64,000 nt of DNA from Hericium rajendrae (taxonomy: Eukaryota > Basidiomycota > Agaricomycetes > Russulales > Hericiaceae): the NCBI GenBank assembly GCA_033439255.1, contig CM065879.1, positions 724,501 through 788,500 of the forward strand, read 5' to 3'. The translations under genes were made by a program, and so were the position numbers. The notes under the pieces are model-generated. The model saw only the letters and a program-made list of their open reading frames with translations. It made no database searches and had not been told where the DNA came from. Numbering within the stretch: the stretch's first letter is position 1; each line of letters starts with the position of its first letter. This document shows, piece after piece, positions 17,118 to 64,000 of this stretch.

Positions 17118-17172
<55 letters not shown>
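17118..17172. repeat. 55-nt poly(T) run, the poly(A) tail of the element
   Basis: An uninterrupted run of 55 T on the plus strand immediately inside the left target duplication. It marks the 3' end of the minus-strand LINE-derived insertion. Confidence 0.95.
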
Positions 17173-24739: not shown

Positions 24740-27700
24740 TCATTCTAATCCAGCATAGCGTACGTCGGCATGGTCTTCTAGCCATGTCAGCCATTTCTTG
24801 AGGTATGAACTTCCGTGTTGGACTGTGGATGAATCGCCAACCACGCACTATTGACCGAGAGTGAATACGAGCACAAGCTGCCTTGCGGTGTGAGGAGCGA
24901 CTTACCAGATGTCGTCTTGCGCGAGTCATTGCAACTGCAAGAGCTTCGTGAGCTGCGCTGTAGGCATGGCTGGTTTGAACTTACCATTAAGCCTGCGCTT
25001 CTCCTTCAAAAATCCAACCTCCCGCTAACGACGAAGGTCAGTAAATATACTGCTATTCGATCAGCATTGCACGCATACCTTCTCATTACTTCTCACCAAA
25101 CTGATCACCACTGCCTCCTTCTCTCGCCCCTGCATACCATCAACAGTCCCGATCTCGAGATCGGTGCCGTACAACGGACGGAGCAGCGACGTCAGCAACG
25201 TAACTTGAGCCTGATACCTATATAGAAATGAGCAGAAGCGTGGAAAATTTCCCTCTGAAACCTTACGGGCTGATAATGGCGATCTGAGAAGGTAGTAATC
25301 CTGCGCCGACCTGATGTCTCCTGATAAGACTGGCTCATGGCAATGAGGATGCATACTCACCAGCCTATCCACCCAATTCTTGACAACAGTCGCTTCATTT
25401 TCATTACACCGACTGCCCTCATCGCTATCCCCGTCCAACCGCTCGTAGTACTCACATCCAGCCGTATCAAAAAACACGACCGGCGTACCAAGCAACTCCT
25501 TTTCTTCATCCTCAGATTCCGCACTCGTATTGGGCAGGTCGAGGAGTAGATGGGATGCAACGGATTCGTGCGCTATGAGTTTTGATCCGTACAGTGTCTT
25601 CGAGGGAAACTCGGCGATCTGTTCGTGCATTCTGCAAGAAGTGAGCTCCATGCGCAAGGTCGCAGATACGAGGTACGAACCGGTATTGGACGATGAGCAT
25701 GCGCTTGATGCCGGGGCCGTACATTTTTTCTAGTCGCTCGAACATGGTGGTTTCGAGCGTGCGGGGAGGCTTTAGGCCCTGTCGGCCTTTCTTCGCAGGC
25801 TTGGGCTTGATTTTGTCATCTGACTTTGCAGGTTTCTCTTCCGGAGATTCAAGCAGAAGGTCCTCTTCTGAATCGCTGGACTCAGGTTCAGATGCAGATG
25901 GTGGAGGCTGCTCGGGTTCGGCATCAAGCTGAGGCGTTGGCGATGGTGCTGGCTTCGTCTTCGGCTGCTGCTTCGTTTTCTTATCGGGAGCGGCTTTCGG
26001 TGCTGTCTTTGATTTGTCCCCGTTTTCTTTCGATTTTTTTCTTGACTCGTCTAGAGATAAGATCGTAGGAGGAAGCTGCTTCGGGTCTCCTGCAAGAACA
26101 AGTTTCTTCCCTTTGAAAATGGGTATCCAACAGACCTAAGGACAGGATGGTAAATTATAGGCAGATATCAGCAGGACTGATCAACTCACAGCCTCGAGTG
26201 CCTGTGTCGCCTCGTCGATGATGACAACGTCGAACTTCTGGTTTCGAAGTTGTCGACCTCCTGAGGAGTGGCACGTAGCTAAGACTACCTGGCTCTCGCT
26301 CAGGACCGTCTCTACTACACCGCCCTCTCGTTGACGGTACCTTCGACGAATGCCAAAATTAGCGCTAGAAGATACCTTGCCATTCTGTACTCACTCTTTC
26401 CTCAGCGCCCGCACTTCCTCCCACATCTTCTTTCTCTCCAATCCCCGCGGCGGCTTTCCCTTCGCACCCTTGCCTTTCCCAGACAACGTATCAAGGGCGT
26501 TCTGCAGCTCGTCTTTCACATCCCGCGCCAATGCAGCCTGGTCCGAGCGCCCCGCCTTCACCTCCAGCGTCGCATTCAGCATGCCCTCCTTCGCCATAAC
26601 GCGTGCCGGATGCCCCACACGCGTGACCTTCAGCCGCGGGCCGCTCCCGGGCGGCGGGAGCGCGAGCAGACGCTCAAGAATGTTGTCTACGGAGAGATTG
26701 GATGCGCCGCACACGAGCAGGCGCAGCGGCTTGGGGTTGGACGGCGTGGTAGACGTGAGCTGGCGGATGAGCTCGATGAGTGTGTGCGTTTTGCCGGTAC
26801 CGGGAGGCCCGTGGATGCACGCGACTTCGGGTGATTCGAGACAGAAGCGGATGGCATCCTTTTGGCTTTGGTTGAGGGAGGGGTCGAAGAAGGTGAGGTT
26901 CTGGACGGGAACAGCTTCAGAAGGCTCGCTCATGCCGAGCAGTACTCGCATAAGGAGAGTTTGCTCGACGCTGAACTGTTCCAGGGACGAGTTAAGCATA
27001 TTAGATTGCGAATATTCAAGACGCAACGAGAGTAATTGCGATGCTTACGCCAGTTTCAGAAGTGGACGACGGGAGGACAGCCTTCTCCAGTAGGCGTAGG
27101 GCCTTGTCCATCCTTCGTATTTCTCAGGCATGCTATATCATCAGATAGACATGAAACGCACCTATCATATGTGACGCTGTTCGCGAGCTTGAGGACTCTA
27201 CATCGCTCGGGCAGGTCAAGATCGTCGGAACTGGTCTCAGAGGGCTCGATGGCAATGACGATGCGCGTATCAGTAACTTTGTAGACAACGCCTTCAGCAG
27301 TTTGATTTGCCTTTGAGTCGGTCCCTGATTTGGGTTTCTTGGACGGCTTCTTTGCGGTGGTCGTTACATTTTCTTCGATGCGAGCCAGATCTCCTGGCCT
27401 ACCGTTGCCTTTGTTTTATTCACGAGAAATGCAGAGCAAAATATAAAAGTTACCTGAAAGTGTGTGGAGGGAATATCGGACTAGTATGATAGGCGGCTGG
27501 GCGTTCGAGCTCCACTAATCTGCACTTCTGAGCATTGATCGCAGGCACTCGAGGGATCACGGCTGAGACACGCACGTCTTTCCACCAAGACCGATGTTGA
27601 TCCCCACGACACCGAGGCCAATCAAAGCAAGGCCTTTCTGCTCCAAGAGCTTGGGGCCACAATTTGAAAGTAGAAGAGAGCTACGCTCGATCTCGGCCTC

Positions 27701-35467: not shown

Positions 35468-37228
35468 TCAAGGGTGTGATCGGTAGCATTCTCGACTCCA
35501 ACTCCACCTGCTCTGTAAAAAGGGACCAAGATCCTTATGATAACGGTCAGGTGGTTCCCATCGCTTTAACCTGTCAAGATCCTCCACATACTCCAGCGGG
35601 ACTACCTTGTTGTGAAAGGCGAGCTCTTGCATATCAACAACCTTGCCTGACTCTTTCCTAGCGATCAGGCAGTCGGCGATCGAGATCACCAGCTCCATTT
35701 CTTCTTCGCGGGAATAGCGTGGGCCATCCACCTTTAAAGCCCTGAGACGGGGGAATGCGGGCCCATTTCGATCGTCACGGGGGTGCATGACGCGAAGTAA
35801 GTACTTCATGGCTGTGATGCTTACGCTCAGCATATGGACACCATGAAATTGAGAGGCAAGGATCCGAGCAGTGGTTTTGGCGAGTTCCTCGTCCCATGCA
35901 AGGATATAATCGGAAACGATGGCGACAGCCTCGACACTGTCCAGCTGCATGTGAGCAAACAAGTCACGTAACAGCTCGTGCCACGCTCCCGTAGGTGTGT
36001 TCGACCGTGGCGTCACCGACACGCTGAAGCACAACTCCGAAGGCACCGCCGGGAGCGATGCGCCTACATAGGCCTCTACGCGGACTTCCTCCAGTAAATA
36101 CGAGATGGACAGACCACGCAGCAGGCCTGGTACACCGTATACCGGCCCGAGCAGCTGCCCGAAACGAAGATGCTGAACCTCTGCCAGAAAAGGAGGCACT
36201 ACCGCTGCATAAGGGTGGACAGGTACTGGGTAGGGGTGGAAGGAATGGAGGGTTGCCTGGGTCGCAGAGGTAATTGGAAATAGACGTATGAAATCGGTAC
36301 ATTCATCCGCTGCGGCGCTAATGCGAAGACGACGGAAATGAGGGCGTGGTGATAGACGATAGAGGCCGGAGAGGCCGGAACCTGCTAGTGCATTTTCGAT
36401 CGACAGATCGCGCAAGTTCTCCAGAGGCTCCAGAAGGACCAGCATCTGCAGCACGGTAAATTTCTCCGGGAGATTGCAGAGAACCAGTTGTGTGAGTGTC
36501 GTCGGGAGGATTGATTGGGATGAGATGCTGACCCCCCAGAGGACGAGGCGAAGCAAGCAGTTCGTCCCTTCAAGACAACCTGGGGGAAGGAAACATCTCT
36601 CGTCTTTCTCTCTGTTGCCAATTTCGAGCTCTAACCGTTTCAAAAATGGCATTGGCGTCGACAGGTATCTGGATACCAGATCCTGTAGTATTTTTGGAGG
36701 CAACGTCAAAAAAACCTCGAATGCACGATCGGAATGAGATAGGGCGAGGGAGAGTGCATTCATACTGGGTTCGTGTGGGCCATACCAAGAGCGGTAGTCA
36801 ATTGATATTGGTAAAGCTGCGCTGCAACGCAGCATGAAAGCAGTTATCTCTGCATTAGCAAAGCAAATTCCTTCCCAGAGGCGGGATGCGCCGATAGCAA
36901 TCGTACGCCATCTTTGACAAACATGGGTAATGACGATCCACACTCGGCTGAAGTTGAAACCTGCAAAGATTCCACCAAAGAAAAGCTCCGCGAGTCGGGA
37001 GGTGGAGACGATTTCGCAGAATATCGCAATCATGAGCTCCGCGGGGAGCCACGCATTGATGAGGGCATACGAATTACGTTGAGCGCACAGCTTGCGCACT
37101 GATTCTGATTCTGACGATGGCGAAGGCGAAAGTGGGATGGCTTCGATTTCTGAATCAATTGCCTGCTGAGCGGAGGTGCAGTCATCAGCGCTCAGGTGAT
37201 GAGAGCTGGACTGCATTTGGATATCCAT
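35468..37228 (-). CDS. F-box-like protein 2 of the tandem block
   Basis: Intronless gene of about 586 codons and the best-preserved extra copy. The F-box-like part reads INAWLPAELMIAIFCEIVS, WIVITHVCQRWRTIAIGASR, LWEGICFANAEI. Leucine-rich segments follow: FLKRLELEIG, LLRLVLWGVS, LTQLVLCNLPEKF, LENLRDLSIE. Relative to copy 1 it has a short extra Pro/His stretch in the middle (FHPYPVPVHPYAAVV), also present in copy 3, so copies 2 and 3 are closer to each other or copy 1 lost it. The start is the ATG reading MDIQMQSSS; it ends RECYRSHP. No damage is seen. Probable SCF ubiquitin ligase adaptor; target unknown. Confidence 0.8.
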   Translation of the reverse strand: MDIQMQSSSHHLSADDCTSAQQAIDSEIEAIPLSPSPSSESESVRKLCAQRNSYALINAWLPAELMIAIFCEIVSTSRLAELFFGGIFAGFNFSRVWIVITHVCQRWRTIAIGASRLWEGICFANAEITAFMLRCSAALPISIDYRSWYGPHEPSMNALSLALSHSDRAFEVFLTLPPKILQDLVSRYLSTPMPFLKRLELEIGNREKDERCFLPPGCLEGTNCLLRLVLWGVSISSQSILPTTLTQLVLCNLPEKFTVLQMLVLLEPLENLRDLSIENALAGSGLSGLYRLSPRPHFRRLRISAAADECTDFIRLFPITSATQATLHSFHPYPVPVHPYAAVVPPFLAEVQHLRFGQLLGPVYGVPGLLRGLSISYLLEEVRVEAYVGASLPAVPSELCFSVSVTPRSNTPTGAWHELLRDLFAHMQLDSVEAVAIVSDYILAWDEELAKTTARILASQFHGVHMLSVSITAMKYLLRVMHPRDDRNGPAFPRLRALKVDGPRYSREEEMELVISIADCLIARKESGKVVDMQELAFHNKVVPLEYVEDLDRLKRWEPPDRYHKDLGPFLQSRWSWSRECYRSHP

Positions 37229-38055
37229 GGTAACCTTCAAATAAAACACGATGGGTCAGTAATTCGACACTTGCGACGAATGAGAGGAGCATGCATACGA
37301 TGCCGGTCTGCGCATATAGTTAGGGAGACGCAATCGCTATGATAGGAGGTCTGGTCAGTGTCTCGAGGCTGATTTCTTATATCTTTTGACCCTGAGGTCT
37401 ATTCGAGCTGTGCAGATCATGTACACAGGGCCGTCACAGTCTCATCGATGGCCTAGAACGTCAGGGTTTCACGGGAGCGAGGCCGTGGTGAAAACTTGAA
37501 ATCATGTTGGCCAAGACCAGGAGAGCAAGCCTCTGTGCATGCTGTGTGCATAGAGGCGTCCCAGTCTGTCCGACTGCCGGCACGGTAGGGTTTCACGGTC
37601 TTCAACATGCTTGCGAGTCGGTGTACGTAGCAGGTTTGTCTGCCACTGGCAGGCGGTGCCAAATTCGGAATAAGCCGCCTTCGAGACTCCGCTTTACAGC
37701 TCCGCAGAGCAACAGAGGGATCCAATTTCTCTCTACAAGAACGCAATGGCTTCGCAAACAAATCCCTGCCCGTAATGAGTCCAAATCATTCCCGGCCTGC
37801 TCTCAGAGAAAATCTCTCAGTAATCGAGGGTTTTGCAGATGCGAGCCGCGCTTCAGGTTTCAAGTTCAAGTTCGTTGCAGTCGAGGATATAGCGATACCC
37901 GAGCGACGAGTACGACAAATCAAAAATAATCTAACGATAGCGATGCCTGTTAGTACAATGGTGAAAGTAGGGTGATGCACAAGAAAACAGTTCAAGATAA
38001 GGGTAAATGGATAAATTATGAGTAGCATCGCGTGTCCATGGTATAAGATTGTAAT
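37229..38055. repeat. Duplicated upstream region of F-box gene 2
   Basis: Counterpart of 32128-32874, with about 80 extra bases near 37740-37860 also found in the block 3 copy. Probable promoter of F-box 2. No exon is seen. Confidence 0.75.
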
Positions 38056-39001: not shown

Positions 39002-41106
39002 TCAACTTGGGTATGGTCGACTCCAACTCCATCTGCGCTGTTCAATGACTTGAGGACCAAGACCTCTTGAAGGCTTATCGATACGAGCAGGTGGTTTCCA
39101 GCTCTTTAAGTTCTCAAGATCCTCCACATACTCTCGTGGAACTACGTTCCCGTAAAAACCGAGCTCTTCCACATCAGCGACCCTACTTGATCTTTTCCTA
39201 GCAATCAGGCAGTCGGCGATCGAGATCAGCATCTCCTTCTCTTCCTCGTCGGAACGGGACGAGCCGTCCACCTTCAAAGCCCTGAGGCATGGAAATGCGG
39301 GCCCGTTTCCATCATCCTGAGGGTGCATGACACGAAGCAGATGCTTCATGGCCATGCTGCATGCGCTCAGCATACGGACACCATGAAATTGAGATGCAAG
39401 GATCCGAGCAGTGGCCTTTGCGAGTCCCTCATCCCGGGAAAGGGTATGCTCGATGGCGACAGCCTCGACACTGTCCATCTGCATGTGAGCACACAACTCA
39501 CACAGTAGCTCATACCACGATCCCCTAGGGGTGCTCAGCCATGGCCTCACGGACACGCTGAAGCACAACTCCGAAGGCACCGCCGGAAGTGATGAGCCTA
39601 GATAGGTGTCTATGCGGACCTTGTCTGGGTATGCGATATCTGAGTACGAGATTCGCAGGCCACGCAGCAGGCCTGGTACACTATACACGGGCCCGAGCAG
39701 CTTCCCGAAATGAAAATGCTGGAGCTCCTCTGGAGAGGGAGGGACGGCCACTGGATGAGGACGGACCGGTGCTGGGTAGGAGCGAAAGGAATGGAGGGTT
39801 GTCTGTGTCGCAGAGGTAATTGGGAATCGACGGATGAAATCGGTGCACTCGTCCGCTGCTGCGCTGAGGCGAAGACGACGGAGATGAGGGCGTGGTGATG
39901 GACGACAGATGTTGGAGAGGCCGAAACCTACTATATCGGAGCATAGTGCATCTTCGATCGACAGATCGCGTAGATTCTCCAGAGGCTCCAGAAGGACCAA
40001 CATCTGCCGTACGGTAAATTTCTTTGGGAGGTGCCAGAGGACCAATTGTGTGAGTGTCGTGGGGAGAATCGAATTGGGCAAGATGCCGACCATCAAAAGG
40101 ACGAGGTCATGTAGGCACTTCGTCCCTTCAAGGCAGCCTGGGGGAAGGAAACATTGCACGTTCTCCACCATTGTGCGCCCGATGCCGAGCTCCAGCCGCT
40201 TCAGAAAAGGCATAGGCTTCGACAAGTTTCTGGAGAACACATCCTGTAGCATCCTTGTAGGAAGGATCAAGATGATCTCGAATGCGCGGTCGGATCGAGA
40301 TAAGGCGAGGGGAGTGCATTGATAGATTTGTGCGCGCCCCTCTGTGAGCGGTAATCAATCGATATTGGTGATATACTGCTGCGTTGAAGCATGGTGGCAG
40401 TTATTTCTGGATTGACAAACGAGATTGCTTCCCAGAGACGGGAGGCACCGATAGCAATCATACGCCAGGTCTGACAAACATGGGTAATGACGATCCATAC
40501 TCGGCTGAAGTTGAAACCCAAATAGCCTCCACCGTGAACCCATTCGGTAAGTCGGGAGGTAGCGATGATTTCGTAGAATATCGCAACCACGATTTCCGCA
40601 GGGAGCCATCATCAGTAATTAGGCAGATGCCCTGAGCGCACTGACGGTTACCATATATGGTAACTTTCAGTGCAGTCAGGACGTGTCAGTGCGATTCAGT
40701 CTCCAGGCTTCATCTATGCCCAAAGCATGGTCAGGGTGAGAATTTCATGCCCAAATTCTCATCTCCAGGGCTGTCAGGCTGGCAACTCTGAGTGCATAAG
40801 TTTAGCCATAATCATAGACATCAACTATATTTGATGCTACCGGCTGTACGAGTGTTTTAACAATATATTGAGCTTAAGTATTATAGCTGCTAAAGCTGTC
40901 AGGGCCGTCAGGGCGTCAGGGTTCGACCGAATTGCTGATGATGCATTGATAAGGGCATATGAGTTACGGCGTGTACGCAACTCGCGGCCGAACTCTGACG
41001 ACGATGAAGGTGGGATGGCTTCGAGTTCCCCATCAACGGCCCGCTGGGCGGCAGTGCAGTCGCCAGCACTCAGACGGCGAGAGTCGGACCGTATCTGATC
41101 ATCCAT
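39002..41106 (-). pseudogene. F-box-like gene 3, broken by a MITE and a frameshift
   Basis: Third F-box copy. The N-terminal part (MDDQIRSDSRRLSAGDC... RNSYALIN) ends at 40943, where a 335-bp MITE interrupts the codons corresponding to INAWLPAE. Coding resumes at 40607 with MVAIFYEIIATSRLTE, WIVITHVCQTWRMIAIGASR, and then loses the frame near 40318, where one base is missing relative to copies 1 and 2. The rest (MLQDVFSRNLSKPMPFLKRL to WSWSRPYPS) is open to 39002. The 422-codon 3' part is undamaged, so loss is recent. Reading the MITE as an intron is possible but would not cure the frameshift. Confidence 0.8.
40608..40942. mobile_element. 335-bp MITE in F-box gene 3
   Basis: Terminal inverted repeats begin ATCATCAGTAATT (40608) and end AATTGCTGATGAT (40942). 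Similarity continues inward to about 38-40 bp (GCCCTGA...CTGACGG on both ends). An internal palindrome GGTTACCATATATGGTAAC lies near 40650. The intact F-box copies read GGGAGCCACGCATTGATGAG across the site, which fixes the boundaries. No clear target duplication is seen beyond the edge bases. No coding capacity. Confidence 0.75.
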
Positions 41107-49190: not shown

Positions 49191-50575
49191 TCATGCTGGC
49201 TTCGCTAAGGTGATCTTGTTTGCGTCCGAGTCGAGGATCAGGTATACGTTCTTGAGGAATGGGATACCCAGACTCCAGGCCGTCCGCGGCGGCTTGCCGG
49301 GCTTATCGTCGTGATCCTGGATGAGGGAATAGCACATTTGGCCCTCCGGTACCCCCTCGGCCACGATCTCCGCTCCAATAATGTCGACGGGATTGATCGG
49401 AAACTCCACTCCACCGACCGTGAAAGAAATCGGAGGTATTTTCGTAGGGTCGCACGGCACGCCAAATATACCGCCGCTCTCGAACGCGCCCGGGAACGTA
49501 TGGAAGAGCTGGGCGTCGCCCTTCGTGGTCAGGATGCGGCTGTTGCCAGTGTCAACGATGGCGCTGCGGCTCGTCCGGACAAGGCGTCCGGACACCTTCG
49601 AGTTCGCGACGGTGAGCTGCCAGAGTCCACCCTGGGCCGTGTTGCGGACTGTGACGGAGTTGCCGGCGCCGGACTGGAACTTGGCAGGGTTCGACCCGCC
49701 GACAGTGAGCTGGCCGGTTCCCGCGGTGCCAAGGTTTGCGCCGCGCCCCAGCTGGATACCCACTATGCTGGCCGGGATCAGGCCAGAAGCTTTCAGGCCC
49801 TCCACCATGGTGACACCTCCCGTGCGCGTTGTGGTCCCAAGTTTCTAACGAGGATGCATGTCAGGTATGTTCGGTCAACAGCATTCCGCAAATGCAAGAC
49901 TCACGCCGTTTGTGAAGCCAGCTATGCCACGCGCAGGAATCGAGGTCAGCCTGTCCGACAGTGTGGTGCCGATGCCGATAGGGAAGTTCGCCATGGCATC
50001 CAAACTCCCGACCTTGACGCTGTCTTCGACAACAGGCCCTGATGCTTTATCGCCGTCTCCGTACTCGATTTCCCAGGTCCTCTCCAAATCCTTGGATTTC
50101 GAGAAGTCAAAGCCCTTTTGGTCTGTGTGAGTCCCAGAGTCTAAGCAAGCATTATGATTTGAAACCAACCTTCTGCTGGTCCGTTTTGGGAATAACCCAA
50201 AATGTACTCGAACCACAGTCTATAAGCATAGGAACGATCTGGGCTTGCGCTCCCAATCTGAACGCTCCGACGTAGCCCACATCCCTCTGCCCAAGTTGGA
50301 AGGCTTGGAGTGGAATACTGACCACACGGGGATCAGGCGCACGCGCGGTAATGTTACTAGTGAAACTGATGAGCCATTGCCTTATTACAGTCGCGCAAAA
50401 ATGCAGCTTACGAGATGACGGGACTGTCATTATGTTCCACCGCGGTGTCTGAAAGTTCATGGACGCTGGGAGAAGAATTATGGCGACCAGTGGGTACGGC
50501 CTGAACATCTCCGGCGATGCTGACGGCGACGAGAACAGTGTTCAGAAGAACGGTGAAAGAGGGAGTGAACTTCAT
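49191..50575 (-). CDS. Secreted pepsin-like aspartic protease (A1) with DCG in the first active-site motif
   Basis: About 400 residues in four exons. A signal peptide leads (MKFTPSFTVLLNTVLVAVSI), then a propeptide and the mature enzyme: VGYVGAFRLGAQAQIVPMLI, DCGSSTFWVIP (first catalytic Asp; the usual DTG/DSG reads DCG), WEIEYGDGDKASG (flap), IAGFTNG, then TMVEGLKASGLIPASI, AIVDTGNSRI (second catalytic Asp, normal DTG) and FLKNVYLILDSDANKITLAK. Both Asp residues are kept. The Thr/Ser-to-Cys change next to the first is rare and may alter the active-site hydrogen-bond network. Introns are about 45-60 bp. The stop is at 49191. A relic paralogue lies at 51940-52480. Probably works outside the cell in nutrient acquisition. 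Confidence 0.85.
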
Positions 50576-51939
50576 GACGTGGATAGCTATTAAGAGTTGA
50601 ACGACGACGACGGGTGAACCTGCGACCCGAAAAAGAATGTAAGAGAATGCTTGGATGATGGAAGGGCCAGCCTTGCCATTAGCTGGACGAAGGCAATGAG
50701 CTTTTATACCGTCTCAACAAAATCTAGCGCCCTGCTTCGCCAGCATAAGCGCGTCCACAGAAAGCGTCGATCAGGGTCGTCAGTGATGCGTGCGACTCAC
50801 GACAATCGGCCAAGGTCGTCACATAGCAAGCGCTGCGCCATAAGGGCGCATGAAACGATGTTATCGCTAAGTGGTTGAATTTGAAATGTTGCATCTTAGC
50901 AATTTTTACGGCAGAAGCGGCGTAGCACCAGGGTGAAACACGGCCGCTGAGCCCAGATTTGAGTGTCCGACAAGCATACCGCGAATCGAAGAGTCCGCAG
51001 CCTGACTTGATCAGCACGACTAGGAGACAGATTAATTCGATGCCATTGGTATGAGTGTAGATGACAGATTTCCCTAAACGCGACTGAAGATCCGAATTCA
51101 ATCGGGAAAAGGCAGCTAGATACTGCACGTACCAGCACGAGTCCCATGAGCCGTCCTTACCTAGGAATAACCATGGATCTGGATAAGACCGTTGTAAGCA
51201 TCAAAATGATGGGAAGGTAACAAAGTACCGCTGGTCCGGTCAAGCATCCGCTGCAGTTTGAGACCATGCTGTGCCGGTTGACTATGCCCGCGAAACGCAT
51301 TCCTAACGCAGCAGTGTCTAGGCTCCTCAGCGCTGCTCGTGGCTATGAAGTTGATCAATCATGGATTTAGGTAGTCATGATGGCGAGTAAAGTGAACAAG
51401 ACTATTTCCGAATAAGCCATGGAACACTAGAGGAGCTCGTACATCTAGAAGAGGTTTATCTCAATCACTTTAAAGCTTATAAAATGATTAAAAATACTCG
51501 AGTGGGACTGCTATATCTTGTCTCTTGAGTGCTGAAGCGCTGAAGCGCTGTAGTGAGATGTAAGAGTCTCACAGTAAGACGCAGGTGCCGTGCCGATGCA
51601 AAGCGTCATGCATAACTTATCACATCATTGTCGCACCGCACTTGGGCCCGACATCAATTCACGGACTCCAGGAGGTGCAACATACCTGAGACAGCAAATC
51701 CGGGAAAGCTCTCCCGTTGCGGCACAAGTTGACCGCGCTGTGCATGTTAAGCGCTTGCGGAGACTCCAGACCCATTCCATGCCGACGTTCCAACAAACGT
51801 AAGTTACCATGCGTCATGATTGTATCATGACCGGTACTGCAGCTACGATTCAGTCAATGCGGAGCGCATGAGGCTTAAGAACGGACCGTACTCAACGGGC
51901 TAAGTTTCCGATACTAGGATCCCTCTACCTTAACTTTGC
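50576..51939. other. Intergenic region, about 1.36 kb
   Basis: Upstream region of the protease gene, then sequence without any exon, repeat end or RNA gene that I can support. The short ORFs show no motif. Confidence 0.4.
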
Positions 51940-52480
51940 CAAAGTTATTTTATTCGTTATTCGCGTCCGAGTCGAAGATTCGATAGACACTCTTCATCAA
52001 AGGCGTACCGAGGCTCCATCGCGCCCTGGGCATATTCTGAATGAGAGAATAGAAAAGGCCTCTGTTGCCGATCTTCATCCCAATGATGTCGACAGGGTTG
52101 ATCTGAAATTCGACAGAACCGATCTTAAAAGATATGGGCGGAATCTCGTATGATCGCAGGTTACTCCGAATATGCCATCTGGAGTCTTGAAAGTCCCAGG
52201 ATAGTCATGGAAAAGCTGGGCGTCGCCATTTGATACCAGACTTTGGGTGTTTCCAGTATCGAGAATCGTCTGGCGATTTGGCGTGACCGTTTTCCCGTCC
52301 ATGTTGACATCCGCGATGTTCACTGCCCAGAGTCCGAGTCCTGATGTATCCTGGTTGAACAGCGTTTCGAGGTTTCCCGGGCCGGTCTTGTATTTGGAGG
52401 TGTCGCAGCCACCAAGCGTGATCTCTTGGAACCCAGTATCTGACATTACCATCAATTATCAGGGGTGCTCCGAATACGCA
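51940..52480 (-). pseudogene. Aspartic protease relic
   Basis: Pieces match the second half of the intact protease at 49191: LWAVNIADVNMDGK, QTILDTGNTQSLVSNGDAQL (the second active-site Asp is present), FHDYPGTFKTPDGIFGVTCD, then LKIGSVEFQINPVDIIGMK-like residues after a frame change, and an end resembling SLGTPLMKSVYRIFDSDANN. The N-terminal half with the first catalytic Asp is not found as a continuous reading frame, and stops interrupt the rest. It is a duplicate of the protease that has decayed. Confidence 0.75.
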
Positions 52481-53782: not shown

Positions 53783-54221
53783 TCGTTTCCTCGTTGTTCT
53801 CCGACAATTCATGGCTGTGTACCATTCTTCAACACCTACCTCACGTCGGCGCCATCCGCGCTTCTCCTCGTCACCCGTTTTCGCCCCCGCTTTCGACAGT
53901 TCCCGCCGGTACCTCCCACATCCTCGTCGACATGTTGACCATACGCCCTAGCCCCCACCCACATTCCTAGGAGCACCACTGCCCTGGAGTAGCGCGTGGA
54001 AGACGAGAGCGACCGCCGACAACGACTTATGGAGCCTTGTTGCTGTAGCAAGGAGGCTCAATTATCATTCATTCATCACCCATGCGGGGTCGCATGTGCT
54101 GAGTTCGTCGCGGCGCTCGCAACCGCAGGGAAACGGGATGCAAAGGCAGGCAGTGCAGCAGAGGGATAGGCTGCAGCTGTCCTCTCCTAGGTGCGTAGCA
54201 TACTACCACTCACGTCCCGCT

Positions 54222-54515
54222 CGCACCACGTCCCGCCCGCGCGCGCTCGCACCACGTCCCGCCTGCATCACGTCTCGCCTGCATCACGTCTCGCCTGCAT
54301 CACGTCTCGCCTGCATCACGTTTCGCCTCCAGCACGTCCTGCCCGCATCACGTCCTGCCCGCACCACGTCCCGCCCGCACCACGTTCCGCCCGCACCACG
54401 TCCCGCCCGCACCACGTTTCGCCTCCAGCACGTCCTGCCCGCATCACGTCCCGCCCGCGCCACGTCCCGCCCGCGCCATGTCCTGCCCGCGCCACGTTCC
54501 GCCCGCGCCAGGCCT
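54222..54515. repeat. 16-bp GC-rich minisatellite, about 18 copies
   Basis: The unit CACGTCCCGCCCGCAC with small changes (TCTCGCCTGCAT, TTTCGCCTCCAG, TCCTGCCCGCAT) repeats through the interior of the hAT element. A compound repeat of about 100 bp recurs inside it. It explains the long shadow ORFs on both strands. Confidence 0.85.
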
Positions 54516-54990: not shown

Positions 54991-55430
54991 ACGGAGGACG
55001 ATACGAGGAGTGCGGAGTTGCAGAAGGTGTCGTACGTGGAGCCGAGGGATATGTATTTGTTTGAGAGGCATCAGGAAAGAGGGAGATGATGAAAGAAGAA
55101 AGCGCACCCATCGTCATGGAGCTTGCAGTACGGGATGTTGAGGTGGCGGAGGAACGTCCAGACGTCAGTGAAGATCCAGCTGGTGAAGGGGTGTATCTGC
55201 TCGTACTGCGGCCAGTCCGGATCCCTTAGTTTTCTGTGCGTCAGCTTATCTGCATAAATAGAACACTCGCGCCAATTGAATCTGACAAGGAAAGGTAAGA
55301 ATGGCATGCACCACCTTGGGGGTGCCGCATCGCATGCCGACCAAGATGGCGTGGATTTGCAGATGCTCCTTCTTATAGACCTCCAGCGCGGGGCGCATGC
55401 CCTCACCGTCCTTCATCTTCACATTGACCT
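54991..55430 (-). pseudogene. FAD synthase (FMN adenylyltransferase) relic
   Basis: The minus strand reads MKDGEGMRPALEVYKKEH, then HAILVGMRCGTPK, an intron, RKLRDPDWPQYEQIHPFTSW, FTDVWTFLRHLNIPYCKLHD, and YISLGSTYDTFCNSALL. These match the PAPS-reductase-fold C-terminal domain of fungal FAD1-type enzymes, which make FAD from FMN and ATP. The N-terminal half is missing: homology starts at about 55430, next to a paraoxonase fragment on the other strand. The acceptor expected before YISLG reads AA instead of AG, and the hAT element cuts the next exon. Non-functional. The intact gene is presumably elsewhere in the genome. Confidence 0.75.
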
Positions 55431-55740: not shown

Positions 55741-56273
55741 TTCCTACTGCAAAATTGCATGTATTGCTATTGACTTGATTCTTGCTATCGTCACATTTAC
55801 GCCGGTCTAATTGTAATCTGTACGGTGCGCTCATTTTCCCCACGTGGATAAGATGAGAGGATGCGTTTAGTGTTATCGCATTTGGTTGTGGCACAAGATG
55901 ACCCTGACCCCTGACACAAAGAAATGGGAATATTCCATGGTAGTATCTCCAGTCATCGCAGCCGGTGACCCAGATACTGTGTAAAACTGAAGTCACTGAC
56001 CAAGATGTTGTGTCAAATGCAGTGTCAATGCCAGGACGAGACACTTACCGAAAAAGTGAAAGCGATAGCCAGAGGCTACATGATCGTGCTCTTCTGCGGA
56101 GAGTCCAAAAGCTGGATACCTACCACGAGGAATAACTTGAGCACCATACATATGGCATAAGCCCAATGACTACAATACTAAGACAGGAGACATACTTATG
56201 GTCGCAGTGGCGGGTGGTCTCTACGATCTTCGGACCCGCACAAGGCCACCCAGAAATCCTAAATAATGAAACA
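55741..56273. other. Duplicated flank and left surroundings of the fold-back element
   Basis: 55740-55900 matches the 3' flank of the paraoxonase relic (48860-49015). On the minus strand near 56050-56130 an open piece reads PRGRYPAFGLSAEEHDHVAS followed by a GTAAGT donor, and may be an exon relic of an unknown gene. 56155-56273 resembles 52995-53115. Confidence 0.45.
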
Positions 56274-56284
56274 TCAGTACTTCA
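56274..56284. repeat. Left 11-bp direct repeat flanking the fold-back element
   Basis: TCAGTACTTCA, identical to 62438-62448. It is probably the target-site duplication; because the element's own end contains TCAGTACT, its exact length could be 9-11 bp. Confidence 0.75.
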
Positions 56285-56464
56285 CATGATTCAGTACTAA
56301 TTTTCCATAAGACCATGGCGAGCCAAACTGACACCGTCGCATTCTAGATTGGCAAGCTCACGTTGGCCAACATCCCAGTGTAGTCATAGTAGTATGGCCA
56401 GAATGACAGTCTTAATTATCATACCCCATTGCCCGGGAATGTTTGCCTATGCCCCTATACCTGA

Positions 56465-57390
56465 CAGTTAGTTACCATGCAGTATTGTCTGGCCAACTAT
56501 GCTATTTCTGCAATCAAATATGCCTGGCCAAGTGCAAAATATTCCTCGGCCTGTATGTATGCTGAAATGGTTGGCCAAAGTATAATCCAATACACTGCGG
56601 CATCCCACGGCATACCAGTATGCTTGGCCAATATCCAATATGCTGTGAGGCTGCATGACTGTATGGTTGGCCAATGTGCATATCCTTTCAGCACTGACAT
56701 GCCGCTATGGTTGGCCAAAGTCCCATATAATTATGCACTACCATTTCGGCTTGATTGGCCAACATCACATATATTTAACTGCGGCATGCCACTATGGTTG
56801 TCCAGCATCTGATACATCTACCTGCAGCATGCCGCTATGGTTGGCCAATGTCTTGTATAATTATGCACGAGCATTCTGCCTTGGTTGGCCAGCATCTGAT
56901 ATTATATACCCTATCATTGCACCTTGATTGGCCAACATCTGAAATATTTTACCGCGGCATGCCACTATGGTTGGCCAACATCTGAAATATTTTACCGCGG
57001 CATACCACTATGGTTGGCCAACATCTGAAATATTTTACCGCGGCATACCACTATGGCTGGCCAACATCTGAAATATTTTACTGCAGCATACTGCTATGGT
57101 TGGCCAATGTCTCAAGTATTTAACTCAACTGTTCCAGCTTGGTTGGCCAGCATCTGATATTATATATCCTACTATTGCACCTTGATTGGCCAACATTTGA
57201 AATATTTTACCACAGCATGCCACTATGATTGGCCAACATCTGAAATATTTTACCGCGGCATGCCACTATGGCTGGCCAACATCTGAAATATTTTACTGTA
57301 GTATACTGCTATGGTTGGCCAACATCTCACATATTTAACTTTATCATCCTGCCTTGGTTGGCCAACATACACATCTGTTCTGTATTATTA
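56465..57390 (+). repeat. Left-arm 43-bp repeat array
   Basis: About 20 copies of a unit such as CATGCCACTATGGTTGGCCA followed by ACATCTGAAATATTTTACCG. Distal copies are more varied; copies at 56940-57130 are nearly identical to each other. The TTGGCCAA palindrome is the most constant part. Mirrored at about 61290-62240. Confidence 0.85.
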
Positions 57391-58970
57391 TTCTGCAGCA
57401 TTTTCAGATATCCTGTGGCATTTTCAGACATCCTATGGCATTTTTGAATATCTCACAGCATTCCTCAATATCTCGCAGCATTCTCAGATATCTTGTGGCA
57501 TTTCTAGACATCCTGCAGCATACCTGCATATCCAGCAGCATACCTGCATATCCCGCGGCATTTCTCAATATCCCATGACATTCTCCAATATCCCGCAGCA
57601 TTTTCTAATATCCTGCGGCATTCTCCATATCCTGTGGCACTCTCAGATATCTTGCAGCATTTCTGGATATCTTGCAGCATTCCCGGACATCCAGCAGCAT
57701 ACCTGCATATCCCGCAGCATTTCTCAATATCCCATGACATTCTCCAATATCCCGCAGCATTTTCTAATATCCTGCGGCATTCTCCATATCCTGTGGCACT
57801 CTCAGATATCTTGCAGCATTTCTGGATATCCTGTAGCATTCTCAAACATCCAGCAGCATACCTGCATGTCCTGCAGCATTTTTCAATATTTCATGGTATT
57901 CTCCAATATCCCACGGTATTCTCTAATATCCCACGGCATTCCTCAATATTCTGCGGCACTCTCAGATACTTTGCAGCATTTCCGGATATCTTGCGGCATT
58001 TCTAGACATCTAGCAGCATACCTGCATATCCCGCAGCATTTCTGAATATCCTGCGGCATTTCTGAATATCCCATGACATTTTCCAATATCCCACGGCATT
58101 CCTCAATATTCTGCGGCACTCTCAGATACCTTGCAGCATTTCCGGATATCTTGCAACATTCCCAGACATCCAGCAGCATACCTGCATATCCCGCAGCATT
58201 TCTCAATATCCCGCAGCATTTCTCAATATCCCGTGGCATTTCTGAATATCCCGCAGCATTTCTCAATATCCCGCAGCATTTCTGAATATCCCATGACATT
58301 CTCCAATATCCCACGGCATTCCTCAATATTCTGCGGCACTCTCAGATACCTTGCAGCATTTCCGGATATCTTGCAGCATTCCCAGACATCCAGCAGCATA
58401 CCTGCATATCCCGCAGCATTTCTCAATATCTCGCAGCATTTCTCAATATCCCGTGGCATTTCTGAATATCCCGCAGCATTTCTCAATATCCCGCAGCATT
58501 TCTGAATATCCCATGACATTCTCCAATATCCCGCGGCATTCCCTAATATCTCACGGAATTCCTCAATATCCCGCGGCATTCCCCAATATCCCGCGGCATT
58601 CTCAGATATCTTGCGGCATTTTCTAATATCTCGTGGCATTTCCTAATATTCCACGGCATTCTCTAATATCCCGCGGCATTCTGTAATATCCTGTGGCATT
58701 TTCAGATATCTTGCAGCATTTCTGGACATCCAGCAACATACCTGCATATCTCACGGCATTTCTCAATGTATCATGGCATTCCTCAATATCCTGCAGCATT
58801 CTCAGATATCTCACAGCATTTTCGGATATCCTACATTGTGAGATTTCTAAATATCCTCTGACATTCCTGGATATTTTACTGCATTTTCTAGATATCCTAT
58901 GGAATTCCTGCATATCCTGTGGCATTACTGCATATTCTCAAGCATGCCAGTCATATCTCACAGCATGTTG
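57391..58970 (+). repeat. Left-arm 20-bp repeat array
   Basis: About 79 copies of a 20-bp unit such as CAGCATTTCTCAATATCCCG. Higher-order units of roughly 160-220 bp are visible: the run CTCAATATTCTGCGGCACTC then CAGATACCTTGCAGC recurs near 57941, 58102 and 58322. Translated frames repeat every 20 residues and are not proteins. Confidence 0.88.
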
Positions 58971-58974
58971 ACAT

Positions 58975-59505
58975 ATCCTACAACCTGTCTAGATATCCCA
59001 CAGCACACCTATATATATTTTTAGCATATCCATATGCATCTTGAGCATCTTAGGATAATCATATAATACAATGTATTGACATCTAATGTGCCATAGGCAT
59101 AATTAGTTACACTTGCAATAATCAGATACATCTGATGGAGCTATAATTTCAGACTCCGGAGATTGCCGAGCCATAACAGAGGCTAATTTTGCAGACCTGC
59201 ACTAAGTAATATACATTGTCCAGTACTCTACTAAACATTGATTACAAATCTATCACATTTCATAACACTATATGAATTGAAGGTATGTACTATTGTTTGC
59301 TTGAATTTTTTATCATTTGATTTGATTTATTGAAGCTCAAACATCAAAGGTTTGCAGAGAAGCATTGTAGCTGTACAACTAAACACGTGTCAAGAAGCCT
59401 GACTGCCATTAGCTACCATCCTTTTTTATTTTATCCTATTCTCTGTCATTCCCTTGCACTCACTCTTTAACATTACTCTCTGCTATAGAATATCCTGAAA
59501 TGTCA
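58975..59505. other. Unique centre of the fold-back element
   Basis: About 530 bp of AT-rich single-copy sequence between the arms. No ORF of note, no transposase motif and no RNA gene are recognised. T- and A-rich runs occur near 59300-59330 and 59420-59440. This is where the loop would lie if the arms pair. Confidence 0.7.
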
Positions 59506-61290
59506 TAGTATATGCCAGTTTGCTGCTGGATATCTGAGAATGCTATGGGATATTTAAAGATGCTACGGGATATGCACGTACACTGTGGGATATTAGGAAA
59601 TGCCGCGGGATATGCAGGTATGCTGCCAGATGTTCAGAAATGCTGCCAGATATCTGGGAATGCTGCGAGATATCTGAGAATGCTGCAGGATATTGGGGAA
59701 TGCCATGATACATTGAGAAATGCCGTGAGATATGCAGGTATGTTGCTGGATGTCCAGAAATGCCGCAAGATATCTGAAAATGCCACAGGATATTAGAGAA
59801 TGCCGTGGGATATTAGGAAATGCTGCGGGATATTGAGAAATGCCACAAGATATTAGAAAATGCTGTGGGATATGCAGGTATGCTGCCAGATATCTGAAAA
59901 TGCTGCCAGATATCTGAAAATGCTGCCAGATATCTGAAAATGCTGCAGGATATTCAAAAATGCCGCAGGATATTAGAAAATGCCATGGGATATCTGAAAA
60001 TGCTACAGGATATCCAAAGATGCTGTGGGATATGCCAATATGCTGTGGGATATGCAGGTATGTTGCAGGATATGCAGGTATGCTATGAGATGTTTAGAAA
60101 TGCTGCAGGATGTCCAGAAATGCTGCAAGATATCTGAGAATGCCGCAGGATATTGGGGAATGCCGCGGGATATTGAGGAATGCCGTGAGATATTAGGGAA
60201 TGCCGCGGGATATTGGAGAATGTCATGGGATATTCAGAAATGCTGCAGGATATTGAGAAATGCTGCGGGATATGCAGGTATGCTGCTGGATGTCTGGGAA
60301 TGCTGCAAGATATCCGGAAATGCTGCAAGGTATCTGAGAGTGCCGCAGAATATTGAGGAATGCCGTGGGATATTGGAGAATGTCATGGGATATTCAGAAA
60401 TGCTGCGGGATATTGAGAAATGCTGCGGGATATTCAGAAATGCCACGGGATATTGAGAAATGCTGCGGGATATTGAGAAATGCTGCGGGATATGCAGGTA
60501 TGCTGCTGGATGTCTGGGAATGTTGCAAGATATCCGGAAATGCTGCAAGGTATCTGAGAGTGCCGCAGAATATTGAGGAATGCCGTGGGATATTGGAAAA
60601 TGTCATGGGATATTCAGAAATGCCGCAGGATATTCAGAAATGCTGCGGGATATGCAGGTATGCTGCTAGATGTCTAGAAATGCCGCAAGATATCCGGAAA
60701 TGCTGCAAGGTATCTGAGAGTGCCGCAGAATATTGAGGAATGCCGTGGGATATTAGAGAATACCGTGGGATATTGGAGAATACCATGAAATATTGAAAAA
60801 TGCTGCAGGACATGCAGGTATGCTGCTGGATGTTTGAGAATGCTACAGGATATCCAGAAATGCTGCAAGATATCTGAGAGTGCCACAGGATATGGAGAAT
60901 GCCGCAGGATATTAGAAAATGCTGCGGGATATTGGAGAATGTCATGGGATATTGAGAAATGCCGCGGGATATGCAGGTATGCTGCTGGATGTCCGGGAAT
61001 GCTGCAAGATATCCAGAAATGCTGCAAGGTATCTGAGAGTGCTGTGAAATATCAAGGAATGCTCTGGGATATCCGAAAATGCTGCAGGATATCTGAAAAT
61101 GCCACAGGATATCCAGAGATGCCACAGAATATGCCGGTATGCTGTGGGATATGCAGGTATGCTGCAGGATGTCTAGAAATGCCGCAAGATATCTGAGAAT
61201 GCTGCGAGATATTGAGGAATGCTGTGAGATATTCAAAAATGCCATAGGATGTCTGAAAATGCCACAGGATATCTGAAAATGCTGCAGAAT
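59506..61290 (-). repeat. Right-arm 20-bp repeat array
   Basis: The mirror of 57391-58970, with about 89 copies (unit GATATTGAGAAATGCTGCGG on this strand). Segments pair exactly, for example 60241-60360 with 58321-58440. About 300 bp near 59815-60120 have no exact partner in the left arm, so the arrays have changed length since the palindrome formed. Confidence 0.88.
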
Positions 61291-62246
61291 AATAATACAG
61301 AACAGATGTGTATGTTGGCCAACCAAGGCAGGATGATAAAGTTAAATATGTGAGATGTTGGCCAACCATAGCAGTATACTACAGTAAAATATTTCAGATG
61401 TTGGCCAGCCATAGTGGCATGCCGCGGTAAAATATTTCAGATGTTGGCCAATCATAGTGGCATGCTGTGGTAAAATATTTCAAATGTTGGCCAATCAAGG
61501 TGCAATAGTAGGATATATAATATCAGATGCTGGCCAACCAAGCTGGAACAGTTGAGTTAAATACTCGAGACATTGGCCAACCATAGCAGTATGCTGCAGT
61601 AAAATATTTCAGATGTTGGCCAGCCATAGTGGCATGCTGCAGTAAAATATTTCAGATGTTGGCCAACCATAGTGGTATGCTGCGGTAAAATATTTCAGAT
61701 GTTGGCCAACCATAGTGGCATGCCGTGGTAAAATATTTCAGATGTTGGCCAATCATAGCGGCATGCTGCGGTAAAATATTTCAAATGTTGGCCAATCAAG
61801 GTGCAATGATAGGGTATATAATATCAGATGCTGGCCAACCAAGGCAAAATGCTCGTGCATAATTATACAAGACATTGGCCAACCATAGCGGTATGCTGCA
61901 GGTAGATGTATCAGATGCTGGACAACCATAGTGGCATGCCGCAGTTAAATATATGTGATGTTGGCCAATCAAGCCGAAATGGTAGTGCATAATTATATGG
62001 GACTTTGGCCAACCATAGCGGCATGTCAGTGCCGAAAGGATATGCACATTGGCCAACCATACAGTCATGCAGCCTCACAGCATATTGGATATTGGCCAAG
62101 CATACTGGTATACCGTGGGATGCCGCAGTGTATTGGATTATACTTTGGCCAACCATTTCAGCATACATACAGGCCGAGGAATATTTTGCACTTGGCCAGG
62201 CATATTTGATTGCAGAAATGGCATAGTTGGCCAGACAATACTGCAT
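61291..62246 (-). repeat. Right-arm 43-bp repeat array
   Basis: Mirror of the left-arm 43-bp array (TGTTGGCCAACCATAGTGGC is the unit on this strand). The outermost 250 bp differ from the left arm by only a few bases. Confidence 0.85.
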
Positions 62247-62437
62247 GGTAACTAACTGTCAGGTATAGGGGCATAGGCAAACATTTCCAGGCAATGGGGT
62301 ATGATAATTAAGACTGTCATTCTGGCCATACTACTATGACTACACTGGGATGTTGGCCAACATGAGCTTGCCAATCTAGAATGCGACGGTGTCAGTTTGG
62401 CTCACCATTCCCGTACAGGAATTAGTACTGAATGGGC

Positions 62438-62448
62438 TCAGTACTTCA
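62438..62448. repeat. Right 11-bp direct repeat flanking the fold-back element
   Basis: TCAGTACTTCA, matching 56274-56284. Confidence 0.75.
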
Positions 62449-62899
62449 TGGCATGCATAGCTTGCACCGAGAAGATGGCAATGATTTCACCTAGTTTGAC
62501 ATGGCGTGCGCAGTCATCGCCTACAGAGGGTGTCGGTAAACTAGAAGTATCTGGGCAGCTCCTACAGGAAACGCAGCGCTCGGCGGGCAGTCATCGACCG
62601 ATGAATGGTGACTGTCTTCAAGGCAATGCAGCGAAGAAAATATAGCAGGGATTATGTGACGATGAAGCGCCCTCGCATCAAACAATGATGTGGCAGATGA
62701 GACGTTGAAGCGTTGCCTCTATATCGCCTGCAGATGTCAAACTCTATAACCACTACGCAGCAGTGTATAGCGCGGCTGCGCTGAAACAATAATGACAGAC
62801 CCACTGAAGAAAAAGGAAAATGGTGATGGAGAGAGGAAAGAGTTGTAATCGATCTCTCGATCCTACAGCACCTGGTGGAAGCACTTGCTAGCTTACGTA
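62449..62899. other. Right flank of the fold-back element
   Basis: 62455-62600 resembles 53140-53290, the continuation of the related empty site. The rest shows no exon and no known repeat. Confidence 0.5.
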
Positions 62900-62924
62900 C
62901 GATGCGCCCGATTACTGTTTACAC

Positions 62925-63045
62925 AACCCTCCCCGCCGAGTCGTTGTGTTCTCTATAGAGACTTGGTCACCAGTCTACCCAATGTCAGCAAACCTGTTAC
63001 AGGTGGGCCGCCGGTAGTCTCTCAGAGGCAGAGTAGACGAGACTC
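62925..63045. repeat. Dispersed repeat shared with about 2527-2640
   Basis: TTGTGTTCTCTATAGAGACTTGGTCACCAG-type sequence here is the reverse complement of the part at about 2530-2575, while CAGAGGCAGAGTAGACGAGA here is in the same orientation as at about 2605-2625. The two copies thus differ by an internal inversion or come from an element with mixed repeats. No coding. Confidence 0.5.
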
Positions 63046-64000
63046 AACACTTCGTACTTACCTCAAGATCGTCTGTCTGACGCCGCCGGTGATGCGCCCT
63101 TTAGCGCGCCTTGCAACGGCATTGCCCACTCCCCGCCTCCTTGCCCATCCCACTTCACTTCACCTCAGCCGCACCAAGTCCGCCCACCGTGACGTTGCTC
63201 CCTGCACAGGACAAGCGCCCCCACGGGTTCGGGACCGACTGGGTCGGACTAAAGCCGGTGTCCCGTGGTCCGATGCACCGAACGGGCCGGAGATCAACCG
63301 GCCGGACGAGTCAGCGGCACAGGAACAGAAGCGTGCCCAGAGAACCAGCTGGCTCAATCAACGTGCCCTTGAATGCCCACACGCCCCCGGATCACGAGCG
63401 GCACCCACGACAGTGCGCTACTGACGTCATCCCAGCCATTCCAGCTCGACGTGCCCGCCGTTCCTGACGCACGCCCCGGGCGATGTTGTAAGGCGGCACC
63501 TTTGATTCGTTCGTACCACGCGCACGCCCTCTGCCCTGCACGGGCCGAGCCGCAACGACTCCACTCGCCAAGGGACCCGGAGCAGGCAGGATCAGGAAGG
63601 AATTGGAGATTGGGTCGGTCAGCAGGAGGTTGTTGTAGGAAGTCGCGCCGGGCCGCCTGAGGCGGCCTTGCCCATTTGTACCGTAGCTACTGACTTAGAG
63701 AATCGGAACGGAATCTGCCTTTTTCCCCTCAGAGCTCAGATCTCACAAAGCCCGCCGTTTGACGTTCTCACCCCAGCCTCTAAGCACGTCTCAGACGTAG
63801 CTCTTCTCACTTTCTCGTGTCGCTCATCGTATTCGTCGTACTCGTCGCCGCGCCGTTATCTACAAGCCGTATCACCTAAGACCCGTGAGTCTTGTCGTAC
63901 CGTCATCATCCCTAGCAGAGCTGCGTCGGAAGTCGCCCACGCACAGCAAGCTCGCCCTCCGCGGCCTTGCTCCCCTACCCGTAGTACGATCACCCGTCAG
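63046..64000. other. GC-rich stretch without a supported gene
   Basis: Open frames at 63111-63467 and 63373-63660 carry no motif and overlap each other in composition-driven fashion. The region may be the 5' flank of a gene or a repeat beyond the window edge. Nothing specific can be supported. Confidence 0.35.

Follow-up and report, generated by a model that had tools for sequence, protein, structure and literature searches.

Within a 64-kb stretch of Hericium rajendrae DNA (64,000 nucleotides of contig CM065879.1; hereafter the window, to which all coordinates refer), we characterized a near-palindrome of ~6.15 kb at 56285-62437. Arm-to-arm alignment bore out the proposal of an earlier note that reverse-complement arms surround a unique centre of ~0.5 kb: the arms measure ~2.73 and ~2.96 kb and the centre ~0.47 kb, with the arm/centre borders (59010/59481) approximate because the alignment fades there. 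From the outside inwards, each arm consists of an imperfect tip, an irregular stretch of ~300 bp, a 43-bp array and a 20-bp array. Both arrays thus lie in the order the note had given, but the outermost ~300 bp do not belong to the 43-bp array.

Anatomy of the element

The left arm, described on the forward strand, begins with a tip (56285-56315) made of a non-matching CATG, the motif ATTCAGTACTAATT (56289-56302) and a diverged stretch, and continues with the irregular outer part with its unevenly spaced TGGCCA boxes (56316-56622), the 43-bp array with a TGGCCA-type box in each unit (56623-57388) and a 20-bp array of ~80 units with a consensus near ATATCCCGCAGCATTTCTCA (57389-59010, inner border approximate). 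The centre (59011-59480) is unique and AT-rich, with 33.6% GC and a CpG o/e of 0.23. On the reverse strand, the right arm comprises an inverted 20-bp array of ~89 units that is blockwise co-linear with the left one (59481-61291), a 43-bp array one unit longer than its counterpart (61292-62100), an irregular outer part with the same box spacing as on the left (62101-62407) and a tip (62408-62437) formed by a diverged stretch, AATTAGTACTGAAT (62420-62433) and a non-matching GGGC. Immediately outside, an 11-bp direct repeat, TCAGTACTTCA, is present in forward orientation at 56274-56284 and 62438-62448, as previously claimed, and is presumed to be a target-site duplication.

The 43-bp array carries TTGGCCAA-type boxes, and TTGGCCAA itself has 31 occurrences within the element and a single one in the remaining window. 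The arms hold 23 and 24 TGGCCA-type boxes, spaced alike except for one extra unit; in the irregular outer arm they lie 31, 95, 35, 47 and 53 bp apart before the regular 43/44-bp spacing begins. The left 43-bp array contains 18 boxes from 56625 to 57359 in unbroken 43-44-bp steps, every step having a box, one of which reads TGTCCA. The invariance of the box core was rejected as functional evidence because the box itself, TGGCCA or TGTCCA, served to delimit the units, which fixes the core by construction; the presence of a box at every 43-44-bp step, in both arms, still stands. The left 20-bp array is organized in higher-order repeats of 160-220 bp that degenerate centrewards, and turnover through slipped exchange is visible in the arrays. 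Both units share CCGCGGCAT, but we do not claim that the 20-bp unit derives from the 43-bp one, since 484 of 3000 shuffles match the score of their likeness (135 of 2000 under another scoring).

Comparison of the arms confirmed the few differences described for their outer parts, with 98.7% identity (1046/1060) over 56321-57380, apart from the extra 43-bp unit on the right, and with transitions accounting for all 14 substitutions. The 20-bp arrays are co-linear between arms, near-identical blocks (57389-57535, 98.0%, 144/147; 57646-58430, 99.6%, 782/785, the best block; 58681-58830, 95.3%, 143/150) alternating with diverged ones (57536-57645, 74.5%, 82/110; 58431-58680, 80.8%, 202/250 with 200 gap columns; 58831-59010, 74.4%, 96/129), and the right array is ~190 bp longer. 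Of the 20 substitutions found in the three best-aligned blocks, 19 are transitions, as are 6 of the 7 found in the fourth.

The longest stop-free stretch across the centre (58951-59520) spans 49 codons, and the longest in the whole element, of 247 and 235 codons and mirrored, have no Pfam match. The window contains 163 stop-free ORFs of at least 110 codons; among the 79 distinct ones scanned (5 of them from the element, which has 15), Pfam revealed no transposase or other mobile-element family. Sub-threshold hits to PSF3_N (E 0.06-0.07) and to I-TevI_DNA-bd (E 0.0016; score 18.7 bits, cut-off 27) spanned 9-13 repetitive residues; we attribute them to chance, together with a Nepo_coat_N hit on 23245-23637 (E 0.068, below cut-off). 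Scans of the window yielded no Rfam match at the gathering threshold and no tRNA. An Argonaute gene ~40 kb from the element, an ORF encoding an RNase III domain and, among the ORFs examined, one for an aspartic protease are also present in the window. The 64-kb window holds no second copy of the element (best match 18 bp, E 1.2). Exact patterns of the 43-bp and 20-bp units had no match in prokaryotic contigs, nor those of the 43-bp unit and outer arm in viral contigs, results that say little for a fungal element.

Ends, flanking repeat and CpG depletion

The motif ATTCAGTACTAATT, at 56289-56302 on the forward strand and 62420-62433 on the reverse strand, has only these two matches in the window with up to 2 mismatches, and two or more such matches, at any position, arose in 3 of 100 shuffles. 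On both sides, four non-matching bases separate this 14-bp inverted match from the direct repeat. When pairs of 35-bp stretches more than 500 bp apart were drawn at random from positions 1-56235, 6 of 30,000 had a direct match of at least 11 bp and none of 30,000 an inverted match of at least 14 bp; a cruder control with 21-bp stretches, overlaps allowed, gave direct matches of at least 11 bp in 9 of 20,000. The symmetric arrangement of repeat and inverted match supports a transposon origin. Counting against it, the palindrome AGTACT lies within the 11-bp repeat and also in the tip, so that 6 of the 11 bases read the same in direct and inverted orientation. The note's common end sequence therefore holds for the 14-bp match, but the tips agree less well than the arms (67.6%, 23/34, over 56286-56320), with poor matching in the extreme 4 bp and in 56303-56315. 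As conservation within a transposon is usually greatest at the ends, this also weighs against a transposon.

CpG o/e ranges from 0.31 to 0.83 inside the element (20 overlapping one-kb windows) and from 0.77 to 1.37, with a mean of 1.05, outside (224 such windows), while (CpA+TpG)/(ApC+GpT) reaches 2.15-5.0 inside as against at most 1.62 outside; in the arrays, the repeat unit itself accounts for part of these ratios, and cleaner evidence comes from the unique centre and irregular outer arm. The drop is gradual at the left border, with 0.71 in 55950-56249, entirely outside the element. The pattern is of CpG type and not RIP-like: RIP at CpA is not supported by TpA/ApT, which is 0.56 inside versus 0.63 (1-56284) and 0.88 (62438-64000). 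This depletion adds support for the element as a silenced repeat, and its base composition suggests that it is probably methylated by its host.

Likeness to foldback elements and rival explanations

Most of the element consists of long inverted repeats, themselves built largely of tandem repeats, and its single insertion shows an exact 11-bp direct repeat, close to the ~9-bp duplication of FB-type elements. Drosophila FB elements likewise have inverted arms built of repeats, with units of 10, 20 and 31 bp and a 9-bp duplication; units and host differ from ours. FB is named as the type element in the cited passages of PMC4079207, PMC3688188 and PMC3169594. As described in the cited part of PMC3169594, Tm1, the Mutator/Foldback family of root-knot nematodes in which one group of members has a putative MULE-type transposase, resembles our element in several respects: its composite TIRs are made of tandem repeats in numbers that differ between ends, its outermost motifs are asymmetric and lie within the target duplication (9 bp in Tm1), and some members lack coding capacity. 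Duplications are of MULE size in both (8-10 bp in 45 of 53 Tm1 cases, 11 bp here), but one quoted Tm1 member measures 1080 bp with 13-15-bp units, against 6.15 kb and 43-/20-bp units, and Tm1 is multicopy and includes a putative transposase, whereas ours is a single copy with none seen in the window ORFs scanned. Tetris of Drosophila virilis, according to the cited part of PMC4079207, also combines an outer flanking domain, a tandem-repeat domain and an inner part in its TIRs with a middle without apparent coding, and its 8-10-bp duplications (11 bp here), together with earlier work, suggested Mutator membership, as is suggested for our element; unlike it, Tetris has ~220-bp units, TIRs of at most 1,735 bp, multiple copies and arrays grown into satellite-like DNA. 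Galileo shares long, internally repeated TIRs, and two secondary THAP-domain sites in its first two tandem repeats were bound in gel shift, in the passages of PMC3688188 cited here. By analogy with these sites, the TGGCCA-type boxes are candidate transposase sites; Galileo differs in having a P-type transposase (PMC3688188).

The element is likely to be a foldback DNA transposon of the non-autonomous kind, with a MULE transposase as the probable agent of its mobilisation in trans. The foldback reading of the earlier note agrees with the anatomy: the arms are minisatellites, an 11-bp direct repeat flanks the element, the tips share an inverted match, and the scanned ORFs show no recognisable coding. 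Its MULE-type assignment is based on duplication length and architecture: MULEs have 8-11-bp duplications and long TIRs (PMC6446971, cited part), and our single insertion has 11 bp and long TIRs with imperfectly matching tips. Since foldback architecture also occurs with different transposases, as in Galileo with its foldback-like TIRs and P-type transposase (PMC3688188, PMC3169594, in the parts cited), and none was seen in the ORFs scanned, the class may be another: there is perhaps one chance in a few that the transposon is moved by a non-MULE class (P/Galileo-like, hAT, Kyakuja-Dileera-Zisupton or undescribed). The 11-bp duplication speaks against this, compared with 8 bp in Zisupton/Dileera, 7 bp in Kyakuja, 5-8 bp in hAT groups and 2-5 bp in CMCT; Kyakuja has CA..TG ends without TIRs, and CMCT has CA..TG ends in most cases (PMC12730594, cited part). 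Kyakuja-Dileera-Zisupton thus disagrees with the element in duplication, ends (CATG left, GGGC right) and long TIRs, CACTA/EnSpm-type (CMCT) in duplication length and end bases, and hAT in duplication length. By eye, no 8-bp match lies directly beside the CAGTACTAATT tip.

Further support for a transposon comes from the near-palindrome, whose outer arms are 98.7% identical and whose inner arrays are co-linear in blocks, and from TTGGCCAA enrichment, regular box spacing, low CpG and transition bias; the single copy in the window and the lack of a transposase in the scanned ORFs count against it. An inverted duplication of a host minisatellite through replication-fork template switching, static and never transposed, would accord with the visible array turnover and the one known copy, but predicts neither the flanking direct repeat nor the symmetric 14-bp match beyond a diverged stretch, and we regard it as improbable. 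It is very unlikely that this is a functional host locus, either a source of long-hairpin small RNAs or a heterochromatin/centromere seed: transcription through it would yield a ~2.7 kb hairpin, Argonaute and RNase III-domain ORFs share the window, and low CpG fits silenced chromatin, but Argonaute is ~40 kb distant and the element is a 6.2-kb island in a window otherwise of ordinary CpG, with many ORFs and not a repeat-rich block. Near-palindromes are a known artefact type in long-read data, from a mirrored read or misjoined haplotypes; a mirror should nevertheless give arms alike throughout, and the ~0.47 kb centre, the extra 43-bp unit, the longer right 20-bp array and the blocks at 74-81% adjoining others at 98-99.6% make an assembly artefact the least credible explanation.

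Proposed mechanism and significance

For the foldback transposon, we propose that its transposase would be encoded at another genomic locus and would most probably belong to the Mutator-like (MULE) superfamily. Aided by the TTGGCCAA-type boxes that recur at regular intervals in the outer arms, this transposase would recognise the ends, excise the element and reinsert it with an 11-bp target duplication. Slipped pairing would turn over the 43-bp and 20-bp arrays, and one inverted duplication, mutual conversion of the arms, or both, may account for the near-identity of the long co-linear blocks. Host methylation of CpG sites would lead to their decay to TpG/CpA. That the palindrome acts as a breakage hotspot is an expectation.

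More tentatively, and with the odds against it, the element may represent a basidiomycete foldback family whose palindrome is kept by slipped arm-to-arm conversion, whose outer arrays serve as multi-site docking platforms and whose transposase, acting in trans, is an undescribed fungal one. No foldback element from fungi was found in the literature searched, so such a family would be the first fungal one as far as that literature goes; it would also present fungal RNAi and CpG methylation with a naturally occurring long-hairpin substrate. If the element is a single static copy, it would be ordinary as biology but a natural substrate for measuring palindrome stability. The element offers a clean way to test whether long near-palindromes in a fungal genome undergo breakage, conversion and methylation. 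Mobility, if it holds, would add fungi to the insects and nematodes from which foldback elements with repeat-built arms are known, and in fungi such elements could give rise to inversions, changes in copy number and new satellites.

Arms, repeat units and array turnover

Tandem Repeats Finder and an inverted-repeat finder found arrays of period 43 and period 20 flanking a centre near 59.2 kb, those on one side being reverse complements of those on the other, and the global arm alignment agrees, bearing out the earlier note's description of reverse-complement arms with 43-bp and 20-bp arrays around a centre and few differences in their outer parts. In the outer arms (56321-57380), 1046 of 1060 positions are identical and all 14 substitutions are transitions; one 43-bp unit is exclusive to the right arm. 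The 20-bp arrays align in co-linear blocks with 144/147, 782/785 and 143/150 identities, interrupted by blocks of 74.5%, 80.8% and 74.4% identity, and the right array exceeds the left by about 190 bp with the array borders as set in this analysis. At the tip (56286-56320), the arms share 23 of 34 positions (67.6%).

Comparison in 100-bp windows, left against right arm and within the arm, showed that a left block at 57539 has 100% identity to the right arm at a 160-bp offset and 99% identity to its own arm at 57698, the arms being in register both before and after this block (offset 0, then 1). Out-of-register conversion would leave such a trace. Site 57716 seemingly favours the right arm as donor, but it is itself a CpG transition and so does not establish that direction.

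The outer arm and the 43-bp units carry TGGCCA-type boxes, 23 in the left arm and 24 in the right, one per arm being TGTCCA. Their spacing, common to both arms, is 31, 95, 35, 47, 53 and then 43 or 44, with a box at every step in 56625-57359. The seeming invariance of the box core arises by construction, since the units had been cut at the box; outside it, among the 14 units that measure exactly 43 bp, the constant positions include T at 11, A at 15, T at 33 and TG at 41-42, and other positions are variable. The element contains 31 occurrences of TTGGCCAA, the rest of the window one. In the 20-bp units, delimited by fit to a typed consensus, the steadiest blocks are ATATC and GCAT, 10 bp apart. 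The boxes are candidate protein-binding sites by likeness to Galileo, for which the available text of PMC3688188 describes footprinting of a first transposase-binding site and gel-shift binding at two more sites, located by sequence within the tandem repeats.

Element ends and comparison with known transposons

The 11-bp flanking direct repeat and the sequence common to both ends, also reported in that note, were both located. Copies of the repeat, TCAGTACTTCA, lie at 56274-56284 and 62438-62448; exactly 4 non-matching bases stand inside each copy (CATG left, GGGC right), and ATTCAGTACTAATT follows CATG at the left end, with its reverse complement inside GGGC at the right. In a control that paired 35-bp stretches drawn at random from window positions 1-56235, 6 of 30,000 pairs had a direct match of at least 11 bp and none an inverted match of at least 14 bp. 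AGTACT, its own reverse complement, is present in both the repeat and the tip, so that only 5 of the 11 bases separate a direct from an inverted relation.

The presumed target duplication also resembles the element's own tip (56274-56302). On this single insertion, the likeness may reflect a choice of targets resembling the tip, a nested insertion or coincidence.

The element is best read, with good probability on its sequence, as a foldback DNA transposon, and comparison suggests mobilisation by a Mutator-like element (MULE) as the likeliest form of this reading. MULEs are described as having duplications of 8-11 bp and long terminal inverted repeats (PMC6446971, in the text available). On our comparison, the nearest structural match is Tm1 of root-knot nematodes, whose terminal inverted repeats, in the accessible parts of PMC3169594, consist of tandem repeats and are of unequal length, with asymmetric 7-bp outermost motifs lying within duplications of 8-10 bp; a Phantom-type MULE transposase occurs in one member group. 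These asymmetric motifs offer a precedent for the CATG/GGGC ends, at first sight a sign against a transposon. The printed Tm1 unit and the element's left tip have GATTCAGTA in common, a likeness spotted post hoc and probably coincidental. Tetris of Drosophila virilis is similar to the element and likewise has no known transposase; its authors, in the available text, take duplication size together with earlier work to suggest Mutator membership (PMC4079207), and our MULE assignment follows the same line of reasoning.

Coding content and neighbourhood

Stop-free stretches in the centre region (58951-59520) reach 49 codons at most. Pfam scans (E up to 0.01 in one batch, up to 0.1 in the others) covered 79 distinct members of the window's 163 stop-free ORFs with a length of 110 codons or more, among them 5 of the element's 15, and none of these matched a transposase or reverse transcriptase family; an intron-rich transposase gene may still lie in the window, among the other 84 ORFs or in shorter exons.

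On the minus strand, an Argonaute gene of several exons (13267-16178; ArgoN, ArgoL1, PAZ, ArgoL2 and Piwi above the cut-off, Mid below) adjoins a plus-strand ORF (11041-11718) encoding an RNase III domain, the two possibly forming an RNAi gene pair. About 9 kb from the Argonaute gene lies a superfamily 1 helicase of UPF1/SMUBP-2 type (25064-27415, minus strand; AAA_11 and AAA_12 above the cut-off, the SMUBP-2 1B domain below), a type that includes RNA-silencing factors. The window also contains a run of 55 T (17118-17172) and two minus-strand F-box-like matches (35471-37255 and 40270-40608), both below the Pfam cut-off, the second adjoining a 450-codon ORF that matched no Pfam family. Nearer the element are minus-strand aspartic protease exons (49194-52455), perhaps two tandem genes, a 19-copy, 16-bp GC-rich tandem array (54211-54510) about 1.8 kb to its left, and an ORF (55074-55412) encoding a PAPS-reductase domain, about 0.9 kb away.

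CpG depletion and host group

CpG observed/expected is 0.31-0.83 in the element (20 overlapping one-kb windows) and 0.77-1.37 outside it (mean 1.05, 224 windows), ranges that overlap slightly, and (CpA+TpG)/(ApC+GpT) is 2.15-5.0 inside versus at most 1.62 outside. The unique centre has a CpG value of 0.23; in the arrays, by contrast, the unit sequence partly sets the values. In the three best-aligned blocks, transitions make up 19 of the 20 substitutions, and 10 of the 20 alter CpG. At 300-bp resolution, CpG observed/expected changes fairly sharply at the right border (0.33 in 62100-62399, 0.84 in 62400-62699) and gradually at the left (0.81 in 55800-56099, 0.71 in 55950-56249, 0.27 in 56400-56699).

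Over the last 0.4 kb before the element on its left side (55800-56284), CpG observed/expected is already falling, with no counterpart on the right; silencing spread, the remnant of an older repeat or chance may account for this.

Across 10 fungal genomes, a survey linked CpG-type C-to-T decay of transposons in its three basidiomycetes, weak in two of them, to methylation involving Masc2-like enzymes, and saw a CpG signature also in the ascomycete Tuber (PMC4352252, in the text available). The CpG marks thus fit a silenced repeat in a basidiomycete but are no proof of the host group.

Full-text searches, covering few subscription journals, showed no described fungal foldback element among the papers listed on foldback, Mutator-like or inverted-repeat transposons in fungi, judged in part by title and opening of the abstract, and found no paper combining foldback, Agaricomycetes and transposon. 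In the available text of a fungal hairpin paper (PMC9757828) 'foldback' refers to RNA hairpins, and that of 'Giant Transposons in Eukaryotes' (PMC6431247) names foldback once, for Drosophila. Read as a foldback transposon, the element would add one more to this class, in a host group for which the papers listed in these searches yielded none.
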